A DNA stretch of 18,124 nt from Thiotrichaceae bacterium (GTDB taxonomy: Bacteria > Pseudomonadota > Gammaproteobacteria > Thiotrichales > Thiotrichaceae): positions 1 through 18,124 of the forward strand of contig JALVDQ010000014.1 in NCBI GenBank assembly GCA_027008885.1, given 5' to 3'. A program made the translations under genes and the position numbers. The notes beneath the pieces are model-generated. The model did no database searches. It was not told the DNA's origin and saw only the letters and a list, made by a program, of their open reading frames with translations. Positions 1,522 through 18,124 of this stretch are shown here, in pieces; positions within the stretch are counted from its first letter, which is position 1; each line of letters opens with the position of its first letter.

Positions 1522-1595
1522 AGATCATTCCTGAAAAGAGAGATAAATTGAAAGTTATTTATGGGGAGTTTATAACGTATTGGTACGCTGATAAA

Positions 1596-1624: not shown

Positions 1625-1650
1625 CGCGGTCAGTGTACTAGATTATTTTT

Positions 1651-1740
1651 ATGATAGAAACCATTAAAGCTCAGGATTTGATCCAAATTGTCATTTTTGC
1701 ATCTATATTTGCTTTTTTATTTTTAAGGATTGCTAATTAG
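1651..1740 (+). CDS. Possible 29-residue single-pass membrane peptide
   Basis: A short open frame runs from ATG at 1651 to TAG at 1738-1740. It has an amphipathic start (MIETIKAQDL) and then a continuous hydrophobic segment (IQIVIFASIFAFLFLRI), the layout of a one-helix membrane small protein. There is no recognisable ribosome-binding site, since the bases just upstream are AT-rich, and AT-rich DNA easily produces Phe/Ile-rich frames by chance. I list it because it is the only structured frame in this 296-bp gap and lies directly between the dyad and the hydroxylase gene. Confidence 0.25.
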   Translation: MIETIKAQDLIQIVIFASIFAFLFLRIAN

Positions 1741-1771
1741 CTATTGTGCTTTTATTGTTGTACTGCCTCTA

Positions 1772-1785
1772 TCGGACAGACTCCT
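1772..1785 (-). repeat. Dispersed intergenic repeat, copy 1 (core AGGAGTCTGTCCGA on minus)
   Basis: On the minus strand this reads AGGAGTCTGTCCGA, matching the cores found at 12844-12860, 17151-17166 and 18028-18044 and, more loosely, at 12705-12721. It is short and lies 32 bp upstream of the hydroxylase start. Confidence 0.4.
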
Positions 1786-1817
1786 AATGCTTACTTATTT
1801 TATAGTGGGATAACAAT

Positions 1818-2486
1818 ATGCTATTAGCCATAAAAAATGTGTTAAATCAAAACCAGTTAAAAGTCATCAGAACATTACTAAAAAATGCTGAATTTGTAGA
1901 TGGAAAATTGTCAGCAGGAAAGGAAGCAAGCCAGGTAAAGAATAATTTGGAGCTTGATCAGCAAAGCCCCCTGCATGAACAGCTTAATCAGATGGTCATG
2001 CCAGCTTTATTAAATCACCCTGAATATCAGGAGTTTGCCTTTCCGCTAAAAGTTGCTACCCCGTTTTATGCGCGTTACACAGAAGGAATGACTTACGGCT
2101 TTCATGTGGATGATCCGATCATGGGTCCTATGAATGGGCGTTATCGCACGGATGTGTCGACTACTATATTTTTGAATGATGAGTATGAAGGCGGCGAATT
2201 GGCAATAAAAACATCCTATGGAGTGCAGCGTCTGAAATTAAATGCGGGCGATGCGGTTGTTTATCCATCGACAAGCTGGCATCAGGTTGATCCGGTTACT
2301 CAGGGTGAACGCCTGGTTGCCGTCATCTGGGCACAAAGCATGATAAAAGACCCACTACAGCGTGAACTTCTGCATGAACTGGGGCAGGCAAGAAATATTT
2401 TGATTGATGAGCGCGCAAAATCTGATGAAACTGCCCATGTGAGCAATGTGTATGCCAATTTGCTCAGACGCTGGAGCGAGTTATAA
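1818..2486 (+). CDS. PKHD-type Fe(II)/2-oxoglutarate dioxygenase (YbiX/PiuC family)
   Basis: Predicted cytoplasmic non-haem iron dioxygenase using 2-oxoglutarate and O2; the substrate of this bacterial prolyl-4-hydroxylase-like family is not established. The 222-residue length matches YbiX/PiuC proteins (about 225). The double-stranded beta-helix core shows the iron ligands H96 and D98 in YGFHVDDP and the distal H155 in STSWHQVDPV, with R165 in GERLVAVIWAQS placed to bind 2-oxoglutarate. Other family signatures are RTDVSTTIFLND (110-121) and EGGEL (124-128). The C-terminal helix (KDPLQRELLHEL onward) is also typical. ATG at 1818 follows GGGA with about 8-base spacing. Family members are often near iron-uptake genes and Fur-controlled; here no siderophore receptor is adjacent and I see no clear Fur box, so iron regulation is inference only. 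Confidence 0.93.
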   Translation: MLLAIKNVLNQNQLKVIRTLLKNAEFVDGKLSAGKEASQVKNNLELDQQSPLHEQLNQMVMPALLNHPEYQEFAFPLKVATPFYARYTEGMTYGFHVDDPIMGPMNGRYRTDVSTTIFLNDEYEGGELAIKTSYGVQRLKLNAGDAVVYPSTSWHQVDPVTQGERLVAVIWAQSMIKDPLQRELLHELGQARNILIDERAKSDETAHVSNVYANLLRRWSEL

Positions 2487-2557
2487 GTACCCAGACAAAA
2501 TTTCGTTTTCTGTTTTTTGATATTCAAGGCAATAACGAAGAAGATCAGAAAACAGGG

Positions 2558-2580
2558 GCTAAATATTTAGCTTGATTTTT
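2558..2580. terminator. Weak candidate terminator between convergent genes
   Basis: A 14-base perfect palindrome GCTAAATATTTAGC (2558-2571) is followed on the plus strand by TTGATTTTT. The stem is short and AT-rich. A second pairing, GTTTTCTG (2505-2512) with CAGAAAAC (2546-2553), could form a larger structure in the same gap. The position, between the ends of the hydroxylase gene and the converging transporter/acyltransferase gene, suits a bidirectional terminator. Confidence 0.35.
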
Positions 2581-5500: not shown

Positions 5501-6046
5501 TGCGATCATTTTTATCAGGGAATCTTTATCTGTGATTTCAAATCCGACGATGATTTTTTCAAAGAATACAGAGAAGAAGAAGGTTCCCAGTAAAATACCT
5601 GTGGTAGTGGCGGCTTGCAGTAAACCATTTGCCTGAGCCAGACGGCGGTCACCCACCAGTTCCTTTACATAGCCATATTTGGCGGGTGAATAAAAGGCGC
5701 TTTGTAATGCAAGTAAAAACGTCATCCCGAAAGCAAACCAGAACCAGCCCTGATAATAACTGTAGGTAATTAGAAGTGTAATTCCAAGTGCAATCCAGGC
5801 GCTTACACGCATGATTTTATTTTTGGGATATTTGTCCGAGATATAGCCTGTAGGTGTAAACAAAAGAATAAATGGCAATAAAATCAGAGCATTAACAATA
5901 GAGCTCAATACAATAAGTTCGGCACCATCGTAGTTTTTAAAGATGGTATTCTGAATAATAATTTTATGCCCCAAATCCACAAAAGCATTTAGAAATGCAA
6001 CAATTAAAAAGGTAAAAAGACCACTTACTTTCAGGGCATTTTTCAT
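2579..6046 (-). CDS. aas: Fused lysophospholipid transporter / 2-acyl-GPE acyltransferase / acyl-ACP synthetase
   Basis: Inner-membrane protein for phospholipid repair: imports lysophospholipid and re-acylates it using an acyl-ACP made in situ. Three parts are visible in 1155 residues. Residues 1-420 are a major-facilitator transporter like LplT, with many hydrophobic helices and signatures such as FVDLGHKI (22-29) and YISDKYPKNK (68-77). Residues 430-630 are a PlsC-type acyltransferase with the HX4D catalytic motif (H453, D458 in NHISWVD) and FPEGTIS (521-527). Residues 640-1150 are an AMP-forming ligase with the P-loop SSGSEGTPKG (794-803), GYGATET (933-939), YRSGD (1026-1030) and the C-terminal lysine K1136 in GSGKTD. 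In E. coli LplT and Aas are separate neighbouring genes; here they are one frame, an arrangement known in other proteobacteria. ATG at 6046 follows AAGGA with 7-base spacing. No motif is missing, so all three activities look intact. Confidence 0.93.
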   Translation of the reverse strand: MKNALKVSGLFTFLIVAFLNAFVDLGHKIIIQNTIFKNYDGAELIVLSSIVNALILLPFILLFTPTGYISDKYPKNKIMRVSAWIALGITLLITYSYYQGWFWFAFGMTFLLALQSAFYSPAKYGYVKELVGDRRLAQANGLLQAATTTGILLGTFFFSVFFEKIIVGFEITDKDSLIKMIAPLGWALVAFTALEVFLAYQLPQVSIEKKRVKFNWSDYFHGRTQLKNLRLVRRHPYIWLSILGLAVFWAISQVLLASYPAYAKEYLGIGNTAVVQGMMAFAGIGIMAGSILAGRISRNHIETGLVPVGAIGVTISILLIRVFDSTILQALNFFFLGVMGGFFVVPLNALMQYHAKNSQLGRVLASNNLIQFSIMLVFLVITTLLSYYKVGSTTILWMLFLVGLAGTIYTIIKIPESLLRFIISRLFAARYRMKVLGFEDLPHSGGILLLGNHISWVDWALVQIASPRPLNFVIESGYYERWYLKGFLDLFGAIPISSGGSAGSLETINRLLKEGKAVCLFPEGTISRTGQLSEFKRGYQKAIEGSKAKIVPFYLHGLWGSRFSRSSGFLKEARQSGFKRDIIVAFGKPLPANTNPDELKRRIFDLSFTSWQDYAKTLDTIPVSWLKTAKRMSFQMAATDITGEPVSHHKFITAVFAFSGLIAKKSPEQNIGILVPASVAGAITNMAVLALGKTAVNLNFTSSKEAIQGAVKKADIKTVYTSRKFLHKLKNRGINIKEILPNTRLVYLEDFKKELPKIKMLFTLSISMLLPASLLSLIYIKRAKLDDTAAILFSSGSEGTPKGVELSHLNLAANSRQVADMLNTRENDIIMSTLPTFHAFGLLATTFMPLSEGIPIVCHPDPTDVLSIAKGIARNQATLLFGTSTFLRLYTLNRKVHPLMLKSLRMVIAGAERLNPDTREAFTLKFNKPILEGYGATETSPVASVNIPDELDTNYWKTQQGNKFGTVGMPLPGTSFRIVDPDTLEELPTGEDGLILIGGPQVMKGYLHDPEKTAEVIVEMDRQRWYRSGDKGHLDSDGFLTIVDRYSRFAKLGGEMVSLSAVEESIRKALGGDPDLDLVAVNLPDDKKGEKVILLIANDMTAKEIKQKLLESEMNPLMIPAKITNVNAVPKLGSGKTDFAASRKIAIELEDSSTR

Positions 6047-6421
6047 ACATTATCCTTGGTGTTTCATTACTTTGTAGTGCTTAAGACTTGTCTGGATTTC
6101 AGAATTATTGTCTCAAGTTTCGGGGTTCAAATCTACCTGAATTAGTCTGTTAAAAAGCAGCTCTCTGAAATATGCCAAAAGACAGGTGTTACGCAGAGAA
6201 ACACAAGGTATTTGCAGAGAACCGCAAAAGTGTTTTGAAGCCAAAACTTTAGCTGGTTACAAACTTGTTTTATTTATTGGTGACTCTTGGTCTTTATCTC
6301 TTTAGGTTTCTGATATTTCGTTATTTTATTAAAATATCTTTATTTTTATTAAGTTATGCTGTAAAACTAAGGCAGATTCTGATATTGTTTCTCACAGGGC
6401 GTATAAAAAGCAATCACTATT
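6047..6421. other. 375-bp divergent intergenic region, no supported gene
   Basis: Very AT-rich gap between two divergent genes, so it must hold two promoters, but I cannot place either with confidence. A short direct repeat of GCAGAGAA occurs near 6195 and 6216. A hydrophobic 62-codon frame that begins with TTG at 6265 is probably chance. A GGTTCAAATC string near 6124 resembles a tRNA T-loop but has no cloverleaf around it. Confidence 0.5.
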
Positions 6422-8443
6422 ATGAACAATATGAAATATTTCAATTTTTCTGATTACCTGGTTTACTATCTGAAATTACTAATATTCTTGCTTGCGATCA
6501 GTTGCCTGACTGTAGTAGATGCCGTACCACTTTCTTCTCCACTGGGTATCAATACCAATGAGATTATGGAGAATGATGCGAGTGTTCCTTTTGTTGATCT
6601 TATGAAAATGTCAATGCCTTTTGAGGAGGCGCGCCCCTGGTTGACCAAAGGTACAGTCAGATATGATAAAAATGGCTGGCCTACATTCATTGCAAGGGGA
6701 GCGCAGGTGGGTACGCGATTTCTCAATGATCTGCCCGCGGGAACCCTGCCTGATGGTCTTTATACGGTGTTGTATGAGGGTGAAGGAAAACTTGAATATA
6801 ATCACGATGCGCGCCTGATACAACGCTCGGCAGGTCGTGATCTTATTGAGATTAAGGCAGGTAAGGACAGAATATTGCGTGCCATTTTAAAAATTAAGGC
6901 AACTAATCCAGATAATCCGCTGCGCAATATTCGTATTCTTCTGCCGGGTGGTATTTGTGAAAATAACCAGTTTAAACGGGTTGGTAGTCCCAAAGATTGC
7001 CCGCGTTCGCGTTTTTTACCCTTTGAACGCGAATACACCGGTATCGTTTTTAATCCGGATTACTTAAGTTATCTGCGTGATTTTAAAGTGATTCGCTTTA
7101 TGAATATGTCCGGCATTACGCGCAATCCAGTCACTCGGTGGTCACAGCGAAATACAGTTGACAAGCAAACCTGGTCGGGCAAATCGGGTGTGCGCGGAGC
7201 ACCTGTTGAAATTATGGTGGCACTTGCCAACAAGCTCGGAGCTGATCCATGGTTTAATATGCCCCACAGGGCAGATGATGATTATATTCGTCAATTTGCA
7301 AATACGGTAAAACAGAATCTTGCTCCAAATCTGAAAGTTTATATTGAATACACCAATGAGGCATGGAACGGCGTATTTAACCAGACTGAATATGTAAAAC
7401 AGAAGGGTCTGGCGCTTAAACTGGACAAAAACAAACACAAGGCAGGTTATAAATATTATTCGATGCGCAGTGTGCAAATATTCGATATTTGGGAGTCTGT
7501 ATTTGGCAATACCGACAACCTGATACGTGTTATGGGTGCCTGGACACCTTATGAGCGTCTTACCGATATGCTTCTATCCTACAGGGATGCCTATAAAAAA
7601 ACCGATGTACTGGCAATTGCACCTTATTTTTATCCGAAGTTGACGACTGCCAGAAGAGCACGTTCAGTCAGTGATATTTTTGCCAGTCTGTATGATCCGA
7701 AAGAGCCTAATTCAATTCCCAATGTGATCAAAATGATTAGGGCGCAGGCTGAGAAAGCCAGAAAATATGGGGTGCAACTGGTTGCCTATGAGGGTGGGCA
7801 ACACCTGGTTGACTGGGATAACCGTAATACCAAACTTAATCCGACCAGGCTGTTTATTCAGGCAAATAAAAGCCAGAGAATGGAAAAAGCCTACACCGAT
7901 TTACTTAGAGGCTGGCGGGATGCGGGTGGTACCCTGTTTGTCAATTTTTCTGCACCACGAACACCTGCCTGGTACGGTAGCTGGGGAACCAAGGAATATC
8001 TGACACAACCTTTGAATCTTGCGCCGAAGCATCGTAGTATTCTTGCATTTATTCGGCATTCTCCCTGCTGGTGGGAGTCTTGTGCGAATGGCTATATTGC
8101 CCGTCTGAATAAACCTGCTGAGAATCCAGGCAAAGATGCCTATAATTTTGTGAGCAGGACGGCTGTTGCCAGCAATACTATTCAGGCAAGGGCAATCAAG
8201 GTTAAGGAGGAAGTATTGAGACGTCGTAAACTTGCTGCAAAGCGTATTGAAACAGCCCGCCGCCTGGATATATTGCGTAATGTTGAACAGAGCAGGCGTA
8301 AAAAGAAAGCGCAGGCATTAACGCTTGCACGCGCCAAGACGTTCAAGATCAACCGCCAGCAGCGTTTGCAAATGCGTCAGCGTCAGGTCAGACGCCAGAG
8401 AGCAATGCGCAGACCTGCAAGACGCCACAGGCAGCGTCGCTAA
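6422..8443 (+). CDS. Secreted clan GH-A-like glycoside hydrolase with a highly basic C-terminal tail
   Basis: Predicted exported polysaccharide-active protein; substrate unknown. Residues 13-34 form a signal peptide (hydrophobic LLIFLLAIS core) with likely cleavage after VVDA. C28 is not in a good lipobox. A beta-rich N-terminal part (about 60-160) precedes a probable TIM-barrel catalytic region (about 205-545). There, YIEYTNEAWNG places E313 after Asn as a clan GH-A acid/base, and LVAYEGGQH places E457 as the nucleophile, 144 residues later. The W/F-rich segments (FRWMN-like VIRFMNMSG, VMGAWTP) suit a glycosidase cleft. Cysteine pairs C179/C193 and C549/C554 could be disulfides, fitting export. 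Residues 591-673 hold 33 Lys/Arg among 83, first as a helix likely to form a coiled coil, then as an Arg/Gln-rich end. ATG at 6422 lacks a clear ribosome-binding site, and M4 (6431) is an alternative. The exact GH family is not identifiable by eye. Confidence 0.75.
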   Translation: MNNMKYFNFSDYLVYYLKLLIFLLAISCLTVVDAVPLSSPLGINTNEIMENDASVPFVDLMKMSMPFEEARPWLTKGTVRYDKNGWPTFIARGAQVGTRFLNDLPAGTLPDGLYTVLYEGEGKLEYNHDARLIQRSAGRDLIEIKAGKDRILRAILKIKATNPDNPLRNIRILLPGGICENNQFKRVGSPKDCPRSRFLPFEREYTGIVFNPDYLSYLRDFKVIRFMNMSGITRNPVTRWSQRNTVDKQTWSGKSGVRGAPVEIMVALANKLGADPWFNMPHRADDDYIRQFANTVKQNLAPNLKVYIEYTNEAWNGVFNQTEYVKQKGLALKLDKNKHKAGYKYYSMRSVQIFDIWESVFGNTDNLIRVMGAWTPYERLTDMLLSYRDAYKKTDVLAIAPYFYPKLTTARRARSVSDIFASLYDPKEPNSIPNVIKMIRAQAEKARKYGVQLVAYEGGQHLVDWDNRNTKLNPTRLFIQANKSQRMEKAYTDLLRGWRDAGGTLFVNFSAPRTPAWYGSWGTKEYLTQPLNLAPKHRSILAFIRHSPCWWESCANGYIARLNKPAENPGKDAYNFVSRTAVASNTIQARAIKVKEEVLRRRKLAAKRIETARRLDILRNVEQSRRKKKAQALTLARAKTFKINRQQRLQMRQRQVRRQRAMRRPARRHRQRR

Positions 8444-8495
8444 TATTTGATGGACAATTAAGTCTTTAGTCTTGTTGTCGCGCTCCCCGCTTCCC

Positions 8496-8554
8496 GCTTG
8501 GTATTTTGTAGAGCAAGCCGCGATTATGGCTGGTTTCGCAAGGTTGTACCAAGC
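8496..8554. repeat. Inverted repeat with nested hairpin between convergent genes
   Basis: GCTTGGTA (8496-8503) and its exact reverse complement TACCAAGC (8547-8554) flank 43 bases that contain a smaller AGCC/GGCT pair. Just before it, CCCGCTT is tandemly duplicated (8486-8499). It lies between the ends of the glycosidase gene and fur. It could form a termination structure, but no T-run follows on either strand. Confidence 0.4.
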
Positions 8555-8568
8555 TCGCTACTGGCTAA

Positions 8569-8979
8569 TTAGTCCTCAAGAGGTTCCGCATAGAGAATAA
8601 AACAATGGTCAATGAGCCTGTAACCATGCTGTTTGGCTATTTCTTCCTGGCGTTTTTCGATGATTTCATCCTGAAACTCTATGATTTTGCCTGATTTCAT
8701 ATCAACAATATGGTCATGGTGTTCGCCACTATCTAGTTCAAATACTGCCTGACCCCCTTCAAAATTATGCCGAATCACCAAGCCTGCTGCTTCAAACTGG
8801 GTAAGTACCCGGTAGATTGTTGCCAGTCCGATGCCTGAATTGTCCTCTTCATTGCTGAGAATGTGGAACAGCTCTTCAGCACTAAAATGCTTTTGCGCGG
8901 ATGATTCCAGGATATTAAGAATGCGCATGCGTGGCTTGGTGATTTTTAGACCCGCTTCTTTAATGTCTTCTTTATTCAT
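8569..8979 (-). CDS. fur: Ferric uptake regulator Fur
   Basis: Iron-responsive DNA-binding repressor of iron uptake and related genes, acting as a cytoplasmic dimer. The 136 residues fit the family (about 135-150). The winged-helix domain contains KITKPRMRILNIL (12-24) and the recognition helix region GLATIYRVLTQFEAAGLVIRH (51-71, given here as landmarks); the dimerisation domain begins with the metal-binding HHDH at 87-90. Residues corresponding to the CxxC that many Fur proteins carry just after HHDH are D93 and S96 (IVDMKSGKIIEF), so that structural zinc site is absent; the only cysteine is C126. ATG at 8979 lies 39 bp after the stop of the LTA-synthase-like gene on the same strand, so it may be co-transcribed as well as having its own promoter. 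No strong ribosome-binding site is seen. Confidence 0.95.
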   Translation of the reverse strand: MNKEDIKEAGLKITKPRMRILNILESSAQKHFSAEELFHILSNEEDNSGIGLATIYRVLTQFEAAGLVIRHNFEGGQAVFELDSGEHHDHIVDMKSGKIIEFQDEIIEKRQEEIAKQHGYRLIDHCFILYAEPLED

Positions 8980-9018
8980 AATTATTTCAGTGACGCTAAG
9001 GGCTAATGCGACTAATGC

Positions 9019-10587
9019 TCAATTATTGTTTTCCTCGTCCATGAATTTACAGACAGGTTCTAACAAGGTTTGGGCAAGGTTTTCAATAGTAATAGTGTGT
9101 TGTTGTGTATCCTGCGATTTACTGTTTGTCCAGATTATATAGTCAGAATCATGGTTGTCATATTTTGTTTCTTCATATACCTCCGGCATACTGGGGATGT
9201 GATCACCATAAAAACATAATACATGTTTTTTGTCTGTGTGCCTAAAGGCATCGGTAAGTTGTTTTAGCATGTTATCGGCATTTTTTAAATGTCTCAAATA
9301 AACAGTAAGGTCATTAATCTTTTCAAGATTGGCTGATTTTGGATAGTCTTCCAGATAGTCATGCTGCTCTGCCGGGCTGGTTTTTTCAAGATGCAAAGGA
9401 CCATGATTTTCCATGGTGATGCTAAAAATAAACAAGGGTCTGTCACTGTATTTGTGTGTGATTTGCAGTATTTTTTCGCTAACGGACTGATCTGAAATAT
9501 AGGGACCGAATTTTTGCGCATCAGCAAAATCCTCAATGTCAATAAATTCATCAAAACCCAGCCTGGGAAATAAGCGCTCACGACCAAAGAAGGAGGCAGG
9601 ATGCGGATGAATACAGACACAGTAATATCCCAATGATTGCAGTAATGAGGCAATTGAAGTTACAGGGTATTTATTTAAAAACTGGTATGGGTAGAAACGA
9701 AACAGCTGCAGTTTTTTATTTTTAATACCGCTGAGAAAGGCAAACTCACTGCGCATGGTGTTGGCACCCCAGGCGGGAACTTTGAGTTGTCCGTACTGTA
9801 GTGATTCGGCACAAATCTTGTCAAATGATTGAAGCACCTGTTTTTTTATGGACGGATGCAAACGTCGCGCATCAAAAAAGGATTCGCTTTGAATCACCGT
9901 AATATTGGGTTTGTTTTCTGATGCAGATAAAAAAGTATGTAAAAAGGGGGGGGATGGGTTGTTATCAGTAAAAAGCGGAGATTGAGCCAGTGCTTTTTTT
10001 ATTTTCTGCCGATGTTTGTCGCTAAATGCCTGTACTGCATAAATAAACAGACTGTTTTGCAATCCATATTGATGAATGTCCTCAGCAGGCTTCATTGTTA
10101 TTTGCATTGCCAAAGCCTGCTGTCTGGCAGAAATATAAAGCCCCAAAAGCAAACCAATACTTGGTGCAATTCGTTGCCAGCTAAATGGCAAGGCGGGTTC
10201 CAGTTTAAGCACAGTAATAATGAGTGCGATAATAAGCAGTGGTGCGAGAATAACTGGCACTAATCCCAGAAAAGGAAAATAAAGACGCGGATGTTTAAAC
10301 GCCTGAGAGAACATCGCAAAGTCTGAAAACACCATGGGTTCCCTGAGCGCCTTGTATTTTGCGTTGTTTACAGCGACCAGGATAATCAGAAAAACAAAAA
10401 TGGCTATGCCTGAAAAAACAGCGCGCTGCACAATCAGGGTGAGCGCAATAAATACCATACTCACCAGTGATATCTGCAATCTAAGTGACTTCAGATCAGG
10501 GCGAGCAGGTGCTTCAGGTTTAAGCCAGCGCTCAGGCAAAAAAGAAACTAAAATGGTCGCAAGCAGGGTTAAAACAAAAGATAGCAC
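9019..10587 (-). CDS. LTA-synthase-like membrane sulfatase-fold transferase
   Basis: Inner-membrane enzyme with an extracytoplasmic alkaline-phosphatase-superfamily domain, related to lipoteichoic acid synthase; probably transfers phosphoglycerol or another phospho-group to a surface polymer (inference from family and neighbours). With the GTG start at 10585-10587 the protein has 522 residues: about five hydrophobic segments in residues 1-155, then the catalytic domain. Key residues seen are E235 (QSESFFD), the nucleophile T277 (WGANTMRSEF), H395 (MENHGP) and D462/H463 (FYGDHIP). I chose the GTG because it overlaps the upstream TAG by one base (TTAGTG) and follows GGAG by about 9-10 bases; an upstream ATG at 10698 would overlap the dehydrogenase gene by 112 bases. 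A C8 tract (plus-strand G8 at 9946-9953) encodes part of residues 211-214 between the membrane and catalytic parts. Confidence 0.87.
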   Translation of the reverse strand: MLSFVLTLLATILVSFLPERWLKPEAPARPDLKSLRLQISLVSMVFIALTLIVQRAVFSGIAIFVFLIILVAVNNAKYKALREPMVFSDFAMFSQAFKHPRLYFPFLGLVPVILAPLLIIALIITVLKLEPALPFSWQRIAPSIGLLLGLYISARQQALAMQITMKPAEDIHQYGLQNSLFIYAVQAFSDKHRQKIKKALAQSPLFTDNNPSPPFLHTFLSASENKPNITVIQSESFFDARRLHPSIKKQVLQSFDKICAESLQYGQLKVPAWGANTMRSEFAFLSGIKNKKLQLFRFYPYQFLNKYPVTSIASLLQSLGYYCVCIHPHPASFFGRERLFPRLGFDEFIDIEDFADAQKFGPYISDQSVSEKILQITHKYSDRPLFIFSITMENHGPLHLEKTSPAEQHDYLEDYPKSANLEKINDLTVYLRHLKNADNMLKQLTDAFRHTDKKHVLCFYGDHIPSMPEVYEETKYDNHDSDYIIWTNSKSQDTQQHTITIENLAQTLLEPVCKFMDEENNN

Positions 10588-11357
10588 TAACGTCTTGCTC
10601 CATACGAAAACAGTCGCATAAACCAGTCTGAAATTGCCGCCGGCAATATTGCCAGAAACCACATACCAAGATTGAGTGGAAAAGGAAACGAGATGCACGC
10701 ACGATTTTTTGCAAGCCCCCGATAAATAATATCGGCGGCTTTTTCTGCTGAAATCATAAGTGGCTTGTCACCCTTAAATTTGGCGCTTAAATCAGATTCC
10801 ACAAACCCCGGGCAGATTGCATTAACCTGGATATTGTCTTCAGCGAGCCAGCCACGCAGTGCTTCGGCATAAGACTTTAGCGCAGCTTTACTGGCACAAT
10901 AGGCAGGTGTGATGGGCATCCCCCTATAAGCTGCGAGTGAGCTAACAATCGCAATCTGCCCCTGTTTGCGTTGTTGCATCCTGCTCAAGAGCGGATTCAG
11001 GCTTGCCAGAACGCCATACAAATTGGTGTCGATCACATGACAGATGGCTTCCCATGATTCTGCTTCGCCATTTTCACCAATGCTGCTGGTAACGCCGGCA
11101 TTGCAGATAATCAGGTCAATCGGTGTACTGGCATCAATGCTTGCAATCAAGCTCTGCAAAGCACTAAAGTCAGTAACATCAACAGAGTGATATTCGACAG
11201 TGGACTGTTTTGCCTCACACTGATTTGCAACTGCCTGGAGTTTTTGCCTGTTTCGGGCAAGCAGAATCAGGTGTTTGTCCTTGTCTGCATAGCGTTTTGC
11301 CAGGGCTGCGCCGATTCCGGCACTGGCTCCGGTAATCAGAATATTTTGTCCTGCCAT
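10587..11357 (-). CDS. Short-chain dehydrogenase/reductase
   Basis: NAD(P)-dependent oxidoreductase of the classical SDR family; substrate unknown. The 256 residues show the cofactor motif TGASAGIG (9-16), D60 after the fourth strand (YHSVDVTD), the CNAG version of NNAG (85-88), the catalytic serine around S139/S140 in IVSSLAAY, and Y153/K157 in YCASK. PGFVESD (183-189) is the usual segment after the active site. A hydrophobic C-terminal stretch (about 223-243, ending in a basic SYGARR) may anchor it at the membrane. Its ATG overlaps the last base of the KpsS-like stop codon (TAATG), and its TAG overlaps the GTG of the next gene, so the three genes are translationally coupled. Context suggests it modifies a capsule or surface-polymer precursor, or its lipid or sugar donor; this is inference. 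Confidence 0.9.
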   Translation of the reverse strand: MAGQNILITGASAGIGAALAKRYADKDKHLILLARNRQKLQAVANQCEAKQSTVEYHSVDVTDFSALQSLIASIDASTPIDLIICNAGVTSSIGENGEAESWEAICHVIDTNLYGVLASLNPLLSRMQQRKQGQIAIVSSLAAYRGMPITPAYCASKAALKSYAEALRGWLAEDNIQVNAICPGFVESDLSAKFKGDKPLMISAEKAADIIYRGLAKNRACISFPFPLNLGMWFLAILPAAISDWFMRLFSYGARR

Positions 11358-12652
11358 TACTCGCTCAGGAGACCATTGACTGTTTTTTGTGGATGGTGAG
11401 TTGTTGCCGTAGCATCATCGGCTTGTGCTATTGTTTTGGATTTCAGTTGAAATGCTTTGAGACTGCCTGCTACCGCCATTTTTATTGCCTGCTGATTATA
11501 GAAGCCCCCATTGATCTGGGTTTTTTCTATCACATAGGAATAAAAAGACTGAAACAGTGCCGGATTGGCGGGTGTTGCCTGCGTCCAGAAATCATCCAGT
11601 AAACCCTGGAAGGTTAGCCCCGGCATGTCGTAAATCGCTTTTCCCAGGGCAATAACGGGGCAGCCCAGACCCAGTGAGGTCATGCCTACGGTGCTATTAA
11701 CCAGTACCGTGCCTTTGGCTTTTTTAAGCAAGGCATCAAGATTACCTGCCTCAAGATAAACGATGCGACTGCTATGCAGTCCATTTTCTTCAGTAGCTTG
11801 TTTGATAATTTTTGGGTAATTGCTAAACCAGGGATCCAGCGGGTGGTTTTTTATGACCAGGATAGCGTTTTTATCGGCATGTTTGGCAAATGATTCAATC
11901 GTGACCTGGATGACCTCAGTGACACTGTCAACGGATGAATGTAATCTTATTTGAGAATCAGCATTAAGCTGTAAAGGGAGTATATAAAAAGGCTTGTCAC
12001 TGCTTAACAGAGTCTCGATCTGTTTTTTTGATTTATGGTTGTAGTAAAGCCACAAAGAGGGAAAGCGGCGCGCAAACCCCCAGTATTCACGCATAAAATG
12101 GTCGGGGCGATGACTGCGATAATGTGGAAACAACGGTTTTAGCAATGATTTTGCAATATGATAGCGGATATCATGCCAGCCGCGAATAGCCAGTTTGTAC
12201 GGTGCTTCTTCGCATTTTTTATCAGTCTGACAGTTATTTTTTAAATACCACTCAGGATCTTTGGGAAGGCAGGAGTGCGCGTTGACACCTTCGCTTTCCA
12301 GCGTCACCCAGTAGGGTCGCGCGTAGCCTTCTTCAAATACATGGATATTGATATTGTTCTGTTTTGCCAGTTGTATGGCTGGAGTGTGTACGGGGCGCGT
12401 GTCACCAAACAGAATAATGTCGCTAATCTGATATTTATCAAATACTTTTTGATAAAAGTCGGGAAGCTCTGAAATTTCCTTGCGGAAATTTATGTGTTTT
12501 AAAGCCGTTGAGAAAAAACGTCCAGAGAGTAAATCGCCCCCATTAAAATTTATTTTTAGTGCTTTTGCTCCCGCGTCATTCAGTGCCTTTTCAAGTTCTG
12601 AAAAGAATGGACTGGCTACACCCTGCAATAATAAAAATGAACGCTGATACAT
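11357..12652 (-). CDS. kpsS: KpsS-like capsule polysaccharide glycosyltransferase
   Basis: Member of the capsule-synthesis family that includes KpsS/LipB, which places the first Kdo residue of the poly-Kdo linker on a lysophosphatidylglycerol anchor for ABC-exported capsules. The 431 residues start with RSFLLLQGVASPFFSEL (4-20), the family's N-terminal signature, followed by INFNGGD (34-40), LFGDTRPVH (81-89), FEEGYARPYW (106-115), LPLQLNADSQIR (225-236), IKNHPLDP (267-274), LVNSTVGM (317-324) and YDMPGLTFQG (341-350). No signal peptide is seen, fitting a cytoplasmic enzyme. ATG is at 12650-12652. It is the first gene of the coupled three-gene set. KpsC and the export genes are not in the window, so whether a full capsule system exists cannot be judged. 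Somewhat longer than E. coli KpsS (about 390). Confidence 0.88.
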   Translation of the reverse strand: MYQRSFLLLQGVASPFFSELEKALNDAGAKALKINFNGGDLLSGRFFSTALKHINFRKEISELPDFYQKVFDKYQISDIILFGDTRPVHTPAIQLAKQNNINIHVFEEGYARPYWVTLESEGVNAHSCLPKDPEWYLKNNCQTDKKCEEAPYKLAIRGWHDIRYHIAKSLLKPLFPHYRSHRPDHFMREYWGFARRFPSLWLYYNHKSKKQIETLLSSDKPFYILPLQLNADSQIRLHSSVDSVTEVIQVTIESFAKHADKNAILVIKNHPLDPWFSNYPKIIKQATEENGLHSSRIVYLEAGNLDALLKKAKGTVLVNSTVGMTSLGLGCPVIALGKAIYDMPGLTFQGLLDDFWTQATPANPALFQSFYSYVIEKTQINGGFYNQQAIKMAVAGSLKAFQLKSKTIAQADDATATTHHPQKTVNGLLSE

Positions 12653-12704
12653 ATTTTAGTTTTTTTTAGTGAAGTTTATGGGTATCCCGATTAATACATG
12701 CCCC

Positions 12705-12721
12705 GGAAGCCTGCCCGAAAA
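12705..12721 (+). repeat. Dispersed intergenic repeat, degenerate copy 2
   Basis: GGAAGCCTGCCCGAAAA resembles the GGAGCYTGTCCGAGAA core with substitutions. Together with the opposite-strand copy at 12844-12860 it brackets about 120 bp of the region upstream of the KpsS-like gene. Sequence outside each core also looks alike (GGGTA ... TTAATACAT versus GGGTA ... TAATTTAT), so the pair may be the degenerate ends of one small inverted-repeat element. Confidence 0.35.
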
Positions 12722-12807
12722 TAGTGAGCCTACTGTGGAAAAGCTGAATTTGGCTAGATTTTTCCCGTTAAATAGAGCAACAATTAGCCTCTCTTGATAA
12801 ACTCACC

Positions 12808-12837
12808 TTATAACAATTCTGAAATTTTCGTTTTCAA
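12808..12837 (-). promoter_or_regulatory. Candidate sigma-70 promoter for the KpsS-SDR-LtaS-like operon
   Basis: On the minus strand TTGAAA (12837-12832) is followed after 18 bases by TTATAA (12813-12808). Transcription would start near 12800, giving a leader of about 150 bases before the KpsS-like ATG at 12652. It is the best -35/-10 pair I found in the 350-bp gap, but it is not proven. Confidence 0.35.
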
Positions 12838-12843
12838 TCCCAG

Positions 12844-12860
12844 CTTCCGGACAGGCTCCT
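12844..12860 (-). repeat. Dispersed intergenic repeat, copy 3
   Basis: The minus strand reads AGGAGCCTGTCCGGAAG, then about 20 bases later AAAATTT. The same core followed by AAAATTT at similar spacing recurs at 17151-17186 and 18028-18062. This copy sits immediately upstream of the candidate promoter at 12808-12837. Confidence 0.45.
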
Positions 12861-13002
12861 GATAAATTAGTAGCGTACCCTGCGTTTATTATACCCATCC
12901 CCCCCTTTTTTTGCATGTTTTTATTCATAACTATTTAGTTTACCCGCTATTTTTCTCAATAGCATGGCTTTACTTCGCAGCGGAAACCGCAGAGGATGTT
13001 TT

Positions 13003-13581
13003 TTAATTTGTAAATTGCACCCAGGGATATTTTTTATCATCCTTGACGCGACTCCAGAACAGGGTACCAGAGTGTCTCCACGGATCGAGTACGATGCCGG
13101 TTTCAAAAGGCTGTCCTTTTGCAGTTACAACCAGTGTATTGTGTTCTCTCCAGTAATTTCGACGGAATGCGACACCATGATAAAACTGCAAGGATTTCAT
13201 TGGTCTGTTGATTTGTTCTGCCATGTCATGGGTCCACTGATAGCAGAGTCCACGAGGTCTGTAGCCATAGTTTACAAGTACATTGTGATACAGTGGCGGG
13301 CTGGTTAGCTGATAACGATTGGCAAGAACTTTGGGGTAAAGAACGGCTTCTCTGGCGACAAAGCGGGCTTCAGAAGGGATGATGTTTGGACCAAGCGACA
13401 TGATTGCCTGATACAAATCGTTAATTTTTTTTTCGTCTGCGGGATTAATGGCGGGAACCACAGTGCTGCCTTTGTTGTTAACATAAGCTCCATCGTAATG
13501 TATGCTGGAACAGGCGCTCAAAAAAATCATCGCCAGGCTTGCAAGCAGCAGATAGACTGTTTTTTTAGTATTATTTCTCAT
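13003..13581 (-). CDS. Lipoprotein with predicted transglutaminase/papain-like Cys-His-Asp set (paralogue B)
   Basis: Not a family I can name. The 192 residues open with a lipoprotein signal peptide whose lipobox is LSAC, so C24 would be lipidated and the protein anchored in the envelope. After a helical segment (NDLYQAIMSLGPNI, about 54-67) and AREAVLYPKVLANRYQL (76-92) come three islands shared with the next gene: GLCYQW (C113), EHNTLVV (H147) and VLDPWRH (D166). Cys at a helix start before Trp, then His-Asn, then Asp-Pro-Trp, with 34 and 19 residue spacing, resembles the catalytic triad order of transglutaminase-like cysteine enzymes. This is inference from motif layout. The start at 13581 has AAGGAG with 9-base spacing. 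It lies 20 bp after its paralogue in an apparent operon. The protein ends soon after the Asp island. Confidence 0.8.
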   Translation of the reverse strand: MRNNTKKTVYLLLASLAMIFLSACSSIHYDGAYVNNKGSTVVPAINPADEKKINDLYQAIMSLGPNIIPSEARFVAREAVLYPKVLANRYQLTSPPLYHNVLVNYGYRPRGLCYQWTHDMAEQINRPMKSLQFYHGVAFRRNYWREHNTLVVTAKGQPFETGIVLDPWRHSGTLFWSRVKDDKKYPWVQFTN

Positions 13582-13601
13582 TCGTATAAACTCCTTGTTT
13601 C

Positions 13602-14258
13602 TCAGTTAATCTGGCTTTGCTGCTCGTCAGTTTTTTGCAGTTTGTCGTTATGGGGTACATAAGTTTTGCTGCCATCAGCATTCAGGATATAAGTTCTTGG
13701 ATAATATTTTTTCCACTGATAATTTGGATCATCTTTGGTTTTTACCCAGTACAGAATACTGTTGTGTCGCCAGGGATCAAGTATAATCGCATCTTCTATG
13801 CCCTTACCCAGTGCCGCAACAGTAAGAACATTGTGTTCATACATGCCTCCCTGGTTGGCAACAGCGCGTTGTAGAGTGAGTGTCTTGTAGTGTCGCTTGC
13901 CGATATGAGCAGTCATATCGCGCGCCCATTGAAAACACAAGCCTTTTTCACGTCTGCCGGTATTGACCAGGACATTCTGATAATTGGGCGGCCACATCAG
14001 TCGATACTGATTCGCAAGATATTTAGGGTAAAGAACTGCCTCGCGTGCTACCCAGGCAGCTTCATCAGGGTCAATATTCGGTCCAAGATTCATGATTGCT
14101 TTGGTCAGATCCCTGATTTTTACCTGATCACCTCCCTCTATAGCGGTGACTGTGGTGATTTTTTTTTCCTTGTCAAATCCAATATTATCATAGTGAACGC
14201 TACAGCCTGAAAATATCAGGGCAGACAGAATTAGCAGGGTTAAAAATATTTTTCTCAT
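13602..14258 (-). CDS. Lipoprotein with predicted transglutaminase/papain-like Cys-His-Asp set (paralogue A)
   Basis: A 218-residue paralogue of the downstream gene. The signal peptide ends in the lipobox FSGC, so C19 would carry the lipid. Shared blocks include IMNLGPNIDPDEAAWVAREA (55-74), LYPKYLANQYRL (76-87), NVLVNTGRREKGLCFQW (95-111), YEHNVLTVAA (140-149) and AIILDPWRHNSILYW (157-171). The candidate catalytic residues C108, H142 and D161 are 34 and 19 residues apart, exactly as in the neighbour. It differs by a C-terminal extension of about 30 hydrophilic residues (YPRTYILNADGSKTYVPHN and on). The ATG at 14256-14258 has no strong ribosome-binding site. It lies 92 bp downstream of ubiG on the same strand. 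A role in envelope protein or peptide processing or crosslinking is possible, but no substrate is suggested by the context. Confidence 0.82.
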   Translation of the reverse strand: MRKIFLTLLILSALIFSGCSVHYDNIGFDKEKKITTVTAIEGGDQVKIRDLTKAIMNLGPNIDPDEAAWVAREAVLYPKYLANQYRLMWPPNYQNVLVNTGRREKGLCFQWARDMTAHIGKRHYKTLTLQRAVANQGGMYEHNVLTVAALGKGIEDAIILDPWRHNSILYWVKTKDDPNYQWKKYYPRTYILNADGSKTYVPHNDKLQKTDEQQSQIN

Positions 14259-14350
14259 CTTTTGTTAGTGTTTGCCTGGTCTTTAATTGGTTTTTTAATC
14301 GTCTGAATCTGTGACTTCAGTAAGGCACGGTGAAGTTACGGGTTCAGGTA

Positions 14351-15091
14351 TCAGTTTTTGCTAAAATACATCATATAATTTATGCTGACATCGTTACCTA
14401 GCTTGTAACTTTGCAGCAGCGGGTTATATGTCATACCGCTTATGTTTTCAAGATGCAAGCCCGCTTTTCTTGCTGCATTCTCAAGTTCAGACGGACGGAT
14501 AAATTTGCCGTATTCATGGGTACCTCTGGGTAGCATTTTCAAAAGGTATTCCGCCCCAATAATCGCCAGCGCAAAGGATTTTGGATTTCTGTTAATGGTG
14601 GAAAAAAATACATGACCCCCAGTTTTTACCAGTTTTGCACAGGACTGAATAATTGAAGCAGGATCAGGCACATGCTCCAGCATTTCCATACAGGTAACGA
14701 CATCAAATTGCCCGCTTTGTTCCTCGGCTATCTCTTCTACTGTAACCTGACGGTACTCAATATTGTTTATACCAGACTCCAGTGCATGCAGTTCAGCCAC
14801 TGATAAAGGTGCTTCACCCATATCAATACCGAGTGTTCTGGCGCCTCGAAGTGTGATGCTTTCAGAGAGGATTCCACCACCACAGCCGACATCAATTACT
14901 TTCTTGCCTTTTAAACCACCGCAATGCTCGTCAATATAATTGAGTCGCAGCGGATTTATATCGTGCAGTGGTTTAAATTCGCTTTCCCTGTCCCACCAGC
15001 GGTGCGCCAGATCGGCAAATTTTTTTATCTCGTTTGCATCGACATTAGGTGCCTGTTTGCTTTCAGTTTTGTGCTGAACCTGGGCGTGCAT
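14351..15091 (-). CDS. ubiG: Ubiquinone biosynthesis O-methyltransferase
   Basis: SAM-dependent methyltransferase that carries out both O-methylation steps of ubiquinone synthesis at the cytoplasmic side of the membrane. The 246 residues match UbiG length. Near the N-terminus [19 protein letters not shown] (25-43) and INPLRLNYI (45-53) are diagnostic. Motif I is [13 protein letters not shown] (65-77), the acidic residue after strand 2 is D90 in LGIDMGEAP, and [11 protein letters not shown] (134-144) is the post-motif region. [14 protein letters not shown] (190-203) and GMTYNPL near the end are also typical. ATG at 15091 is preceded by AGGTAA about 6 bases upstream. It is divergent from a small membrane protein gene, with 69 bp between the starts. 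Confidence 0.96.
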
Positions 15092-15126
15092 GTGATTACC
15101 TGTTCGTTTATCAAAATTAGTACGCT

Positions 15127-15132
15127 ATTATA
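15127..15132 (-). promoter_or_regulatory. Candidate -10 element for ubiG
   Basis: TATAAT on the minus strand, 36 bases before the ubiG start, in the 69-bp divergent gap. No good -35 sits at the expected distance, so support is limited to the -10 match. Confidence 0.3.
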
Positions 15133-15160
15133 TAGAATCTGGATTCAAAAATTTAATTAA

Positions 15161-15709
15161 ATGATTCGATTCTTACCTGGTATTTTGATTATACAAATAG
15201 CTACCGCAGCACTGGTTATGCTGGCGCCTGAAAACCTGCAAGGACTTGCCTGGCTACGCCTGTTGATTCCCTTGTTAGTCGTAGGGTTTTTCTCGGCTTT
15301 CTGGTTCTCGTCCATTGCAAAACATAGTAGCAAAGATGAAATTTCACGCTTGCAGGAGCAACATGCACGAGAGCGTGAAAAATTGCAAATCAATGCAGAA
15401 AGAGCCAAAACCCGCATAATCAAAAAAACCCAGCAACAAATTGCCAGAGAATCCAGATTAACGCATGGCAAGGCGAATTTTAAGGTGGGTGCTGCACTGG
15501 CAGGTGTGATAGGCTTTGGCGCATTAATGTTATTGACCCAGTTTTTAACCCTGGGAGTCGTGACATTAACCACAGCAGGCGGTGCGCTCGGCGGCTATTT
15601 TTATCGTGTCCGCAAGGAAAAAAACAGTCGCTTGCTCGAGCCTGGAAAAAGTGGTCAGCCTAAAGTCATTCCTGCCGAAAAATCAGGAAAAAAATTACTC
15701 AAGCGTTAA
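15161..15709 (+). CDS. Membrane protein with a central coiled coil (hypothetical)
   Basis: Function unknown. The 182 residues contain two hydrophobic segments at the N-terminus (about 4-22 and 30-50), a charged helical stretch with coiled-coil character (about 55-100: EISRLQEQHAREREKLQ, then RAKTRIIKKTQQQIARES), a Gly/Ala-rich hydrophobic hairpin (about 107-148, including GGALGGYF) and a basic tail ending in KKLLKR. The likely topology is an inner-membrane protein with the coil on one face. ATG at 15161 is the first start in frame and directly follows the divergent promoter region, but no ribosome-binding site is recognisable. It is divergent from ubiG and followed by a convincing terminator, so it is probably transcribed alone. 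No catalytic motif is apparent. Confidence 0.72.
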   Translation: MIRFLPGILIIQIATAALVMLAPENLQGLAWLRLLIPLLVVGFFSAFWFSSIAKHSSKDEISRLQEQHAREREKLQINAERAKTRIIKKTQQQIARESRLTHGKANFKVGAALAGVIGFGALMLLTQFLTLGVVTLTTAGGALGGYFYRVRKEKNSRLLEPGKSGQPKVIPAEKSGKKLLKR

Positions 15710-15715
15710 TTATAT

Positions 15716-15736
15716 CTTGTGCCCGGGCAAGTTTTT
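15716..15736 (+). terminator. Rho-independent terminator
   Basis: CTTGT GCCCGG GCAAG (15716-15731) forms a 5-bp stem, including one T-G pair, and is followed directly by TTTTT. It starts 7 bp after the stop of the plus-strand membrane protein gene, between it and the converging rfbB. Confidence 0.6.
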
Positions 15737-15779
15737 GAAATACCGCTAAAATCCGTTATGGCTGTTAATTTATTTTAAT

Positions 15780-16850
15780 TTAATTTATTAATAAAGGTCT
15801 CCACCAGTCTTCATTTTGCAGATACCAGTCAATGGTTTTTTCAATGCCGGTTTCAAAGGTTTCCTGAGGCTCATAGCCCAGTTCTTTTCTAAATTTGCTG
15901 GCATCAATAGCATAGCGCCAGTCATGTCCAGCCCTGTCTTCTACAAAGGTGATCAGGTCGGCTGATTTTTTGCCATTAGCGGGAGCTGCTTTGGGGTACT
16001 GTCTGGATAACTCCGGGTTTTCAGCAAAACGTCGATCCATGGATTCGCATAACAGGTTAATAATATCCATATTATTCCATTCATTATTACCGCCGATATT
16101 ATAGATTTCGCCAACCTTGCCTTTTTCCAGGATCAGGTCAATGCCACGGGCATGGTCATCGACATACAGCCAGTCACGCACATTTTTACCAGTGCCATAA
16201 ACAGGTAGTGGTTTGTTACGCAATATATTGGTGAGAAACAGTGGAATCAGTTTTTCAGGGTACTGGTACGGACCGTAGTTATTGGAGCAGTTTGTTGTAG
16301 TTACATTCAAGCCGAAAGTATGGTGATAGGCACGCACGATATGATCAGAAGATGCCTTGCTGGCAGAGTAGGGGGAGTTAGGTGCATAAACATGATCTTC
16401 AGTAAAACCTGGTGAATCATCATCCAGCTCACCATAGACTTCATCCGTAGATACATGATGGAAGCGGTGCTCAGAATTGGCTGTTTTCTTGTTTTCTATC
16501 CACACGCTTCGGGCTGCCTTGAGAAGGTTGTGTGTACCAATAACATTGGTTTCCAGAAAAATATCCGGTCCTGAAATTGAACGGTCAACATGGCTTTCTG
16601 CCGCAAAGTTGACAATCGTATCCAGGTCTTCTTCGACGAGTAATTTTTCAACCAGAGGCTGGTCTGCGATACTTCCTTTGACAAACTTGAAATTTGCTTT
16701 GTCTTTAAGTGCATCCAGACTTGGCTCATTGCCTGCATAAGTGAGTGCATCCAGTACCACAACGTGATCTTGCGGGTGAGTACGCAGCCAGTAATACACA
16801 AAATTAGCACCAATAAAACCGGCACCTCCAGTTACTAATAGTCTTCTCAT
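15780..16850 (-). CDS. rfbB: dTDP-glucose 4,6-dehydratase
   Basis: Also called rmlB. Converts dTDP-glucose to dTDP-4-keto-6-deoxyglucose, a precursor of dTDP-rhamnose and other deoxysugars for O-antigen or capsule. The 356 residues are full length. The NAD-binding motif is TGGAGFIG (7-14); LDALTYAGN (33-41) and AAESHVDRSI (83-92) are family signatures. Catalytic residues are T135, D136 and E137 in STDEVYG and Y161/K165 in YSASK. NNYGPYQYPEKLIPL (190-204) and GTGKNVRDWLYVDDH follow as in characterised enzymes. The ATG at 16850 follows GAGAAC. The usual partners rmlA, rmlC and rmlD are not adjacent in this window: downstream is a convergent gene and upstream a divergent one, so it is monocistronic here. 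A hairpin lies about 50 bp upstream of its start. Confidence 0.96.
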   Translation of the reverse strand: MRRLLVTGGAGFIGANFVYYWLRTHPQDHVVVLDALTYAGNEPSLDALKDKANFKFVKGSIADQPLVEKLLVEEDLDTIVNFAAESHVDRSISGPDIFLETNVIGTHNLLKAARSVWIENKKTANSEHRFHHVSTDEVYGELDDDSPGFTEDHVYAPNSPYSASKASSDHIVRAYHHTFGLNVTTTNCSNNYGPYQYPEKLIPLFLTNILRNKPLPVYGTGKNVRDWLYVDDHARGIDLILEKGKVGEIYNIGGNNEWNNMDIINLLCESMDRRFAENPELSRQYPKAAPANGKKSADLITFVEDRAGHDWRYAIDASKFRKELGYEPQETFETGIEKTIDWYLQNEDWWRPLLIN

Positions 16851-16900
16851 ATTTTGTTCTCTTTAATCGTCCGTTTTTATCTGATTGAAATATCTTGAAA

Positions 16901-16939
16901 AATTGCGCAAGCAAGAGATGCTTTGCAGTTCGCGCAATT
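16901..16939 (-). promoter_or_regulatory. Hairpin in the rfbB leader (dyad AATTGCGC/GCGCAATT), possible attenuator or operator
   Basis: AATTGCGC (16901-16908) pairs with GCGCAATT (16932-16939); inside, AAGCA pairs with TGCTT. Read on the minus strand, the direction of rfbB, the stem is followed by TTTC so that the transcript ends GCGCAATTTTTC, like an intrinsic terminator 50 bp before the rfbB start. It could attenuate rfbB, stop upstream transcripts, or be a DNA operator. Confidence 0.45.
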
Positions 16940-17150
16940 CTATCATGTTTTTTTAAGACTCTTTTTATTATTTTCAGGATCTGGGAGGATATAGCGGTCA
17001 AGAATACTCATGTTTTGGAGTTCAAATTAGTCAACAGTGTAGAGAACCGCGCGGAATTAGTATGCAAACCAGCTGAGAGCCAAATTATATCGGATTTTCT
17101 TCTTTTGTATTTTTGGCTTTACTATCTATGCTATTCTTAAACAGGCTTCC

Positions 17151-17186
17151 GGGAGCTGTCCGAGAAAGCAGAAATACGCAAAATTT
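17151..17186 (+). repeat. Dispersed intergenic repeat, copy 4
   Basis: Core GGGAGCTGTCCGAGAA (17151-17166), followed 13 bases later by AAAATTT (17180-17186). Same orientation as the copy at 18028-18062, with the duplicated-repeat gene between them. Confidence 0.5.
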
Positions 17187-17276
17187 AGGGGTCAAAATGA
17201 ACACAATAAAAAAGACATATAACATTGCCATCCTTTCAACGAAGCTTTCTACTAATCAAAGTTAGGAATTGTGAAT

Positions 17277-17918
17277 ATGACAAACAAGAAATCTACTCTG
17301 CTCGTGTGTTGGTTTAAAGAGCATCAATGGGATCATTTAAAACAGATCGTTTCTGACTCAGAAAATTTAGGTGAAACTTACGCCGACTGGAAAAAAGGTG
17401 CAGAGCAACAAATTAGCCTGTTTAGAAAACAACAAGGCACAGTTGTAAAAATGAGTGCTGATTCAGAGAAAATGCTTCAATGGGCAAAAGAAAATAATAT
17501 AGAACTGAGCAGTGCAAACCTGTCGCAATACGCATTCCACCTGTTTGAGGACAAATATCCCACAATGGTTGTCTGTTGGTACAAAAAGGAACAATGGGAT
17601 CACTTGAAAGAAATAGTTTCTGACCCAAAAAAACTGGGCGATACTTATGAAGAATGGGAAAAGAAAGCAGAACAAGACATCAATATGTTCCGCAATAAAG
17701 GGCAAAGGGTTAAAAAAATACCTATTGACACAGAGCAAATGCAGCAATGGGCTAATCAAAATAACCTATCGCTGGATAGCTCAAATCTCTCAGACTACGC
17801 AGCGTATCTTTTTGAAAAGGATTACAGACCAAAGACACAAAAGGCAAAGAAAAAGAAACAGGCAAAGAAAAAGAAACGAATAAAAAATAAATACGGAAAT
17901 AACTTTTATAATATTTAG
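17277..17918 (+). CDS. Protein of two tandem 87-residue repeats plus a Lys-rich tail (unknown function)
   Basis: I do not recognise the family. With the ATG at 17277, which has AGGA 9 bases upstream (the in-frame GTG at 17271 is only 3 bases from it), the product has 213 residues. Residues 8-94 and 97-183 are the same unit at an 89-residue period, about 47 of 87 positions identical. Shared landmarks are VCW (C11, C100), QWDHLK (17-22, 106-111), IVSD (24-27, 113-116), the TY..W block, QWA (68-70, 157-159), NLS and YA..LF near the unit end. The unit looks alpha-helical with a beta-like start. Residues 187-204 are almost all Lys/Arg/Gln/Ala, a typical nucleic-acid or polyanion binding tail. No signal peptide or membrane segment. 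The gene is AT-rich, stands alone, and is bracketed by two direct copies of an intergenic repeat, which hints at acquisition as a unit. Confidence 0.75.
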   Translation: MTNKKSTLLVCWFKEHQWDHLKQIVSDSENLGETYADWKKGAEQQISLFRKQQGTVVKMSADSEKMLQWAKENNIELSSANLSQYAFHLFEDKYPTMVVCWYKKEQWDHLKEIVSDPKKLGDTYEEWEKKAEQDINMFRNKGQRVKKIPIDTEQMQQWANQNNLSLDSSNLSDYAAYLFEKDYRPKTQKAKKKKQAKKKKRIKNKYGNNFYNI

Positions 17919-18027
17919 ACAGTTTCTTATTAGGAATGTCCCGGATACTCTGCGCTGATGATGCTAATGGTTGGTTGATATTGATCTGCAGCTGGTGATA
18001 ATTTGACGCAAGTTCAGTGGAGGTGCT

Positions 18028-18062
18028 AGGAGCTTGTCCGAGAACTAAGTTTTTAAAAATTT
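18028..18062 (+). repeat. Dispersed intergenic repeat, copy 5
   Basis: Core AGGAGCTTGTCCGAGAA (18028-18044), then AAAATTT at 18056-18062. A looser match, AGGAATGTCCCGGA, lies at 17932-17945 just after the repeat-protein gene. This copy is followed within 5 bases by a long hairpin. Confidence 0.5.
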
Positions 18063-18066
18063 CAAT

Positions 18067-18108
18067 CAATATATAGTGGTTTTCGCATTAAGAAAACACT
18101 ATATATTG
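18067..18108. repeat. Long AT-rich hairpin at the right edge
   Basis: The 18-base left arm (18067-18084, starting CAATATATAGTG) pairs with the 17-base right arm (18092-18108) over 17 bp with a single bulged G, around a 7-base loop. A TGTGATCACA palindrome overlaps its right end (18107-18116), then TTTTTT follows. It may be a terminator, or the end of an element that continues beyond the window. Confidence 0.55.
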
Positions 18109-18124
18109 TGATCACATTTTTTGG

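Follow-up and report, generated by a model that had tools for sequence, protein, structure and literature searches.

Tandem lipoproteins with an invariant Cys-His-Asp set in a Thiotrichaceae bacterium point to an apparently undescribed family of putative papain/transglutaminase-like cysteine enzymes

An 18,124-nucleotide stretch of DNA from a Cocleimonas-like Thiotrichaceae bacterium (assembly GCA_027008885.1, contig JALVDQ010000014.1, positions 1 to 18,124; hereafter the window) raises the question of what two adjacent, paralogous lipoproteins that carry the same Cys-His-Asp set might do in the cell envelope. The long copy (13602-14258, minus strand) is a lipoprotein of 218 residues with the lipobox FSGC19 and the predicted catalytic residues C108/H142/D161; the short copy (13003-13581, minus strand), separated from it by 20 nucleotides, has 192 residues, the lipobox LSAC24 and the predicted catalytic residues C113/H147/D166. 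The mature proteins are identical at 85 of 167 aligned positions (51%), share the motifs GLC[YF]QW, EHN.L.V and [VI]LDPWRH, and have a Cys-to-His distance of 34 and a His-to-Asp distance of 19 residues. A check of the open reading frames (ORFs) reproduced exactly the coordinates, residues and spacings of an earlier sequence-only reading, which had taken the pair for lipid-anchored cysteine enzymes of no named family.

The predicted fold together with the invariant Cys-His-Asp set suggests that both copies are probably cysteine peptidases (or amidases) of transglutaminase/papain-like fold, anchored in the outer membrane and facing the periplasm. The models of the long and short copies have pLDDT (predicted local distance difference test) values of 93.1 and 94.7: Cys is the first residue of a helix (108-120 in the long copy, 113-124 in the short copy), His is the first residue of a strand (142-149 and 147-154) and Asp is the last residue of another strand (158-161 and 163-166). 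Compared at the level of secondary structure, both models thus show the arrangement by which one study defines a papain-like core, in which the core helix begins with the Cys, the His lies on β2 and a polar residue lies on β3 (PMC10318531). In the fold search, nearly all fold neighbours shown for either model belong to the papain/transglutaminase superfamily, and LapG is the first structural neighbour of both, although it is tied. A papain/transglutaminase-like fold is very likely for both copies, with the triad predicted in its canonical places.

The earlier reading also withstood a check for replacement of the three residues among the homologues aligned. Cys, His and Asp are invariant in all 316 aligned rows, which comprise 220 listed proteins and 96 ORFs (312 distinct strings; eight of the proteins lie inside ORF rows); the ORFs come from 86 sources, the window and loci L045-L129, and include 93 distinct strings. 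The Cys-His distance is 34 residues in 53 ORFs, 35 in 36, 36 in five and 33 in two, and the His-Asp distance is 19 in 92, 20 in three and 29 in one; the spacing shared by the two copies is therefore beyond chance. Exactly two cysteines occur from the lipobox onward in 89 of the 96 ORFs, a pattern that favours a free thiol over a disulfide. The residues invariant in the ORFs (long-copy numbering) are C19, N95, N99, G106, C108, H142, D161 and W163; E141 is Glu in 94 of the 96, and N95 is Asn in 302 of the 316 rows. As N99, G106 and W163 are as invariant as the triad across the 316 rows, and as Cys, His and Asp could in principle be metal ligands, the proteins might instead be non-enzymatic lipoproteins whose conserved residues bind metal or merely stabilize the fold. 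We consider this highly improbable: the order of the residues and their secondary-structure placement fit a papain/transglutaminase triad, and the fold neighbours come almost entirely from that superfamily.

The family members are, by their signal peptide and lipobox, lipoproteins, and the lipid anchoring proposed earlier holds at this level throughout, the lipobox Cys being present in 316 of 316 rows. By the Lol sorting rule, lipoproteins without an Asp at position +2 go to the outer membrane. In the 96 ORFs the +2 residue is always S, A, T, G, M, I, K or V and never Asp; the outer membrane is thus the likely destination.

How such an enzyme might act can be outlined from the predicted positions of the residues. 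The Cys that opens the core helix would serve as nucleophile, the His on strand 2 as base, and the Asp on strand 3 would orient the His. Attack on a peptide or Gln amide in an envelope protein would yield a thioester, which would be resolved by water. The outcome would then be cleavage rather than crosslinking, and the substrate, by analogy with LapG, may be an envelope or surface protein. A strict transglutaminase would share the same fold and triad, but an amine would resolve the thioester, so that the lipoprotein would crosslink or amidate envelope proteins. Fold alone cannot tell a hydrolase from a transferase; however, Pfam Transglut_core (PF01841) matches none of 126 members scanned (E <= 0.1), and the top-ranking, though tied, neighbour of both models is the protease LapG. 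A strict transglutaminase is therefore improbable. The resemblance to Transglut_core lies in a G[LF]C motif where the helix begins, with His and then Asp further on, and the difference in the sequence around the latter two (HAW...DPT vs. EHN...LDPWR in the family). Membership of Transglut_core was rejected for want of any PF01841 match among the members; the single match in the window's own genome is another gene (contig C223).

A cell-wall amidase or endopeptidase of the NlpC/P60 type (PF00877) has also to be weighed, since these enzymes have a papain-like core and one of them, MepS, is a lipoprotein. The NLPC_P60 domain has His as its third catalytic residue (PMC10318531), i.e. a C-H-H triad, whereas the family has C-H-D, with Asp in all 316 rows. 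Furthermore, NlpC_P60 matches none of the 126 members (E <= 0.1), and NlpC/P60 structures score low against the family models, with a Z below that of LapG. Membership of NlpC/P60 was rejected on the third residue and the missing Pfam match, and we regard an activity of this type as quite improbable.

The cysteine peptidase reading invites comparison above all with LapG and its BTLCP relatives (PF06035, Peptidase_C93), which include HvyA of Caulobacter and DvhG of Desulfovibrio; they share the Cys-His-Asp order, and the LapG group is periplasmic. The spacing in the LapG reference (C130/H165/D182) is 35 and 17 residues, and that in HvyA is 34 and 15, both similar to the 34 and 19 of the family. 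For profile comparison we used two yardsticks: 25 LapG-type proteins (32 PF06035 loci were fetched, 27 passed a D/E-C-D/E motif filter and two long ones were dropped) and 17 Transglut_core domains (17 of 24 rows passing a motif filter among 25 loci). In hhalign the family aligns with the LapG type at P 0.043, with Cys, His and Asp in register, and with Transglut_core at P 0.016, over the Cys region only and with the Cys in register; the two yardsticks align with each other at P 0.0013. Column shuffles beat the family's score in 3 of 100 cases for LapG and 1 of 100 for Transglut_core; the LapG score is thus not significant, and homology to either at the sequence level is no more than suggestive.

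The family nevertheless differs from LapG in that it consists of lipoproteins without acidic neighbours of the Cys. Acidic calcium ligands flank the Cys in DvhG and LapG, and D316/E318 are needed in DvhG (PMC13090378). In the family neither position 107 nor position 109 is Asp or Glu in any of the 316 rows: position 107 is Leu in 295, His in 19, Tyr in one and Phe in one, and position 109 is Tyr, Trp, Phe, Val, Thr, His or Arg, while the acidic motif of the LapG yardstick is present there by selection. PF06035 matches none of the 126 members (E <= 0.1) and nothing in the window's own genome. Among 24 genomes of the same taxonomic family, own genome counted, neither PF06035 nor the LapD domain PF16448 occurs, whereas PF16448 is present in 5 of 15 genomes from elsewhere in the class. 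Some BTLCP enzymes work without LapD, so its absence is a weak criterion. The absent flanking ligands, together with the absence of both domains from the 24 genomes, lead us to conclude that the family is not LapG, and LapG/C93 membership was rejected for both reasons and for the lack of a PF06035 match, although the family may work like LapG.

A second lipoprotein family is related by profile. It consists of the protein at locus L048 (1300-1836), first found weakly (E 3.5e-4), and of loci L189-L195; a search seeded with L048 gave matches in 8 of 229 genomes of the class, one of them a fragment with stops. The eight members align, bear a lipobox and share the invariant motifs GN...N, GLCY.W, EHHAV and D.W, of which N...N, GLCY.W, EHH and D.W recall the main family; in hhalign the segment that begins at the Asn motif and runs as far as D.WR links the two families (probability 98%, P 8.5e-14). 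The sister family differs in its His-Asp spacing (29 vs. 19) and in the distance from lipobox to Cys (58 residues in L048 vs. 89 in the long copy). Neither Pfam nor NCBIfam matches it at E <= 0.01, and it gave nothing against LapG in hhalign (P 0.1). Scans of ten of its neighbours gave GATase at two loci, glutamate-cysteine ligase and gamma-glutamyltranspeptidase at one each, DUF4126 at two and Sel1-repeat proteins at two.

Why should one genome keep two copies? The pair lies side by side on one contig in 11 of 12 genomes of the window's genus, own genome counted (the exception is G010). In a tree of 89 of the 126 rows of our alignment (37 proteins with P labels left out; L063, a twin of L062, was excluded from this alignment, and further near-duplicates from a later one), the long copies form one clade (10 rows, support 100/99), which also holds both L060 copies, and the short copies form another (8 rows, 98/93). 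The short-copy clade adjoins Thiotrichaceae proteins with a single copy at the locus (94/89), and the fork that unites long-copy, short-copy and single-copy groups is weak (89/68). As the long and short copies form two clades, the duplication probably predates the tandem genomes sampled, both copies having been kept, each with its triad; and as the pair stays together throughout the genus, the copies probably act on different substrates. The further suggestion that the longer copy is specialized by its C-terminal 30 residues stands in part: residues 189-201 form a predicted hairpin with no counterpart in the short copy, but the last 18 residues are of low confidence (block means 66 and 56), the tail beyond W182 varies from 3 to 36 residues across the 96 ORFs, and the copies fall into two separate clades, each maintained across the tandem genomes.

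The family occurs in 34 of 57 related genomes, all within the same taxonomic family (34 of 36, vs. 0 of 21 outside). Of 274 genomes of the class, six have it if the window's own genome and the weak match L048 are counted; for the phylum the tally is 12 of 398, of which 11, own genome counted, matched over most of the domain and one (G536) over its first third only. Partial matches (G321:C11, G327:C2 and G536) reach about the first 70 positions and were not counted as members. At E <= 0.001, a phmmer search with the long copy matched 171 proteins and profile searches matched 729 and 438, the best 120 of each of these searches being listed. One degenerate pattern, run against the contigs of 84,980 species, picked out 169 stretches, of which 164 were confirmed and 80 kept; the hosts are Thiotrichaceae, Thiofilaceae, Campylobacterota (Sulfurospirillum, Sulfurovum, Arcobacter), Roseobacteraceae, a Desulfobacteraceae metagenome-assembled genome (MAG) and MAGs labelled Verrucomicrobiota, Aquificaceae and others. 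Thiothrix and Leucothrix also have the family. Copies on two contigs labelled Aquificaceae MAG 28 (L057 and L071) nest within Thiotrichaceae in the tree, so the bin is likely mislabelled. The top match of the family profile, a 388-residue protein filed under the sea spider Nymphon striatum (P0121), is probably bacterial DNA inside that assembly. In Thiothrix fructosivorans (L100), the gene and a UbiG-type neighbour lie on pTfr446, a plasmid according to the record title.

Neither Pfam nor NCBIfam has a family that claims these lipoproteins, in agreement with the absence of a named family noted from the sequence. Across the 126 members, Pfam at E <= 0.1 gave the lipoprotein-attachment model in seven, while each of twenty further families matched a single member (best E 0.0028); NCBIfam at E <= 0.01 gave four models, again with a single member apiece (E 0.0005 to 0.007; e.g. 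MG095-family lipoprotein, LolB). Sequence searches of the PDB and a viral fold library gave no lead, and a name for the family did not appear in the literature surveyed, which consisted mainly of titles and abstract openings, so that one could still be in print. This is apparently an undescribed family inside a known superfamily, and not a new kind of system. To our knowledge, rather few cysteine proteases of the Gram-negative periplasm have been described, with LapG and MepS as the familiar examples. The present family is lipid-anchored by sequence, lies outside Pfam and NCBIfam and keeps its complete triad in every row aligned, which makes it one for annotators to name. It is useful and testable, and offers experimenters one residue to mutate. 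If surface proteins are processed, the enzymes may give filamentous sulfur bacteria, whose 24 searched genomes lack both LapG and LapD, another route to release or trim them.

Genes around the lipoproteins were tallied at 80 loci and the window, leaving out L043 and L044 (repeats of the window and L026) and L049, and no universal partner emerged across the loci surveyed; Pfam scans of selected neighbours gave no functional lead. In the window, a methyltransferase gene (14351-15091, minus strand; best Pfam match Methyltransf_23), which we take to be of UbiG type, lies 92 nucleotides before the long copy on the same strand and is, by position, a possible operon partner. A member of its BLAST cluster stands just upstream on the same strand at 37 of the 80 loci as well as in the window, with several 4-nucleotide overlaps. 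We rejected it as a functional clue, since it does not extend beyond Thiotrichaceae-like loci and the arrangement resembles an inherited gene order.

Proteases also occur as neighbours. A rhomboid gene (PF01694 in the one representative scanned, L126, the others being assigned by BLAST cluster) lies directly upstream at 11 of the 80 loci and overlaps the lipoprotein gene start as called; ten of these are labelled Campylobacterota and one is unplaced, and farther out the Sulfurovum group has other surroundings than the remaining loci. A Deg-type trypsin gene is a neighbour at five of the 80 loci (L104 and L109 scanned by Pfam), divergent at L104, L107, L117 and L120, which belong to one clade, and co-directional at L109; a sixth lies about 4 kb away at L069. 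Partnership with either protease is weakened: all 11 rhomboid loci fall in one clade of 12 (L123 lacks the gene), and no Deg-type trypsin was seen close to the lipoprotein gene in ten further loci or in wider cuts of L045-L047, which show other neighbours (at L200 and L208 the lipoprotein gene itself was masked by ORF picking). A metallophosphoesterase gene precedes the lipoprotein gene at nine Sulfurospirillum-type loci (L085 scanned), and in Leucothrix pacifica (L059:3786-5882), a single case, the gene directly upstream encodes a DsbD-type thiol-disulfide protein. Taken at its widest, the material would allow the doubtful, though conceivable, picture of two linked undescribed families of outer-membrane-anchored cysteine proteases that process the envelope from its outer-membrane side across Proteobacteria and Campylobacterota, coupled to rhomboids in some of the latter (11 loci), with the Cocleimonas tandem pair splitting two substrates.

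The pair is followed in the window by Capsule_synth (PF05159), short-chain dehydrogenase and sulfatase-type genes (9019-12652, minus strand; Pfam). HvyA, which belongs to the LapG family, keeps capsule formation in check in Caulobacter (PMC4241560); as a capsule neighbour is common to only two other loci, we claim no such link here. Elsewhere in the window, a 215-residue protein (17271-17918, plus strand) has two similar halves (..VCW[FY]K..QWDHLK.IVSD...LG.TY..W...AEQ.I..FR..) and only sub-threshold Pfam matches, and a 673-residue protein (6422-8443, plus strand) without a Pfam match at E <= 0.001 begins with a signal-like segment and ends in a tail rich in Arg and Lys. An ORF of 1155 residues (2579-6046, minus strand) may encode a fusion of transporter, acyltransferase and acyl-ligase (Aas/LplT-like).
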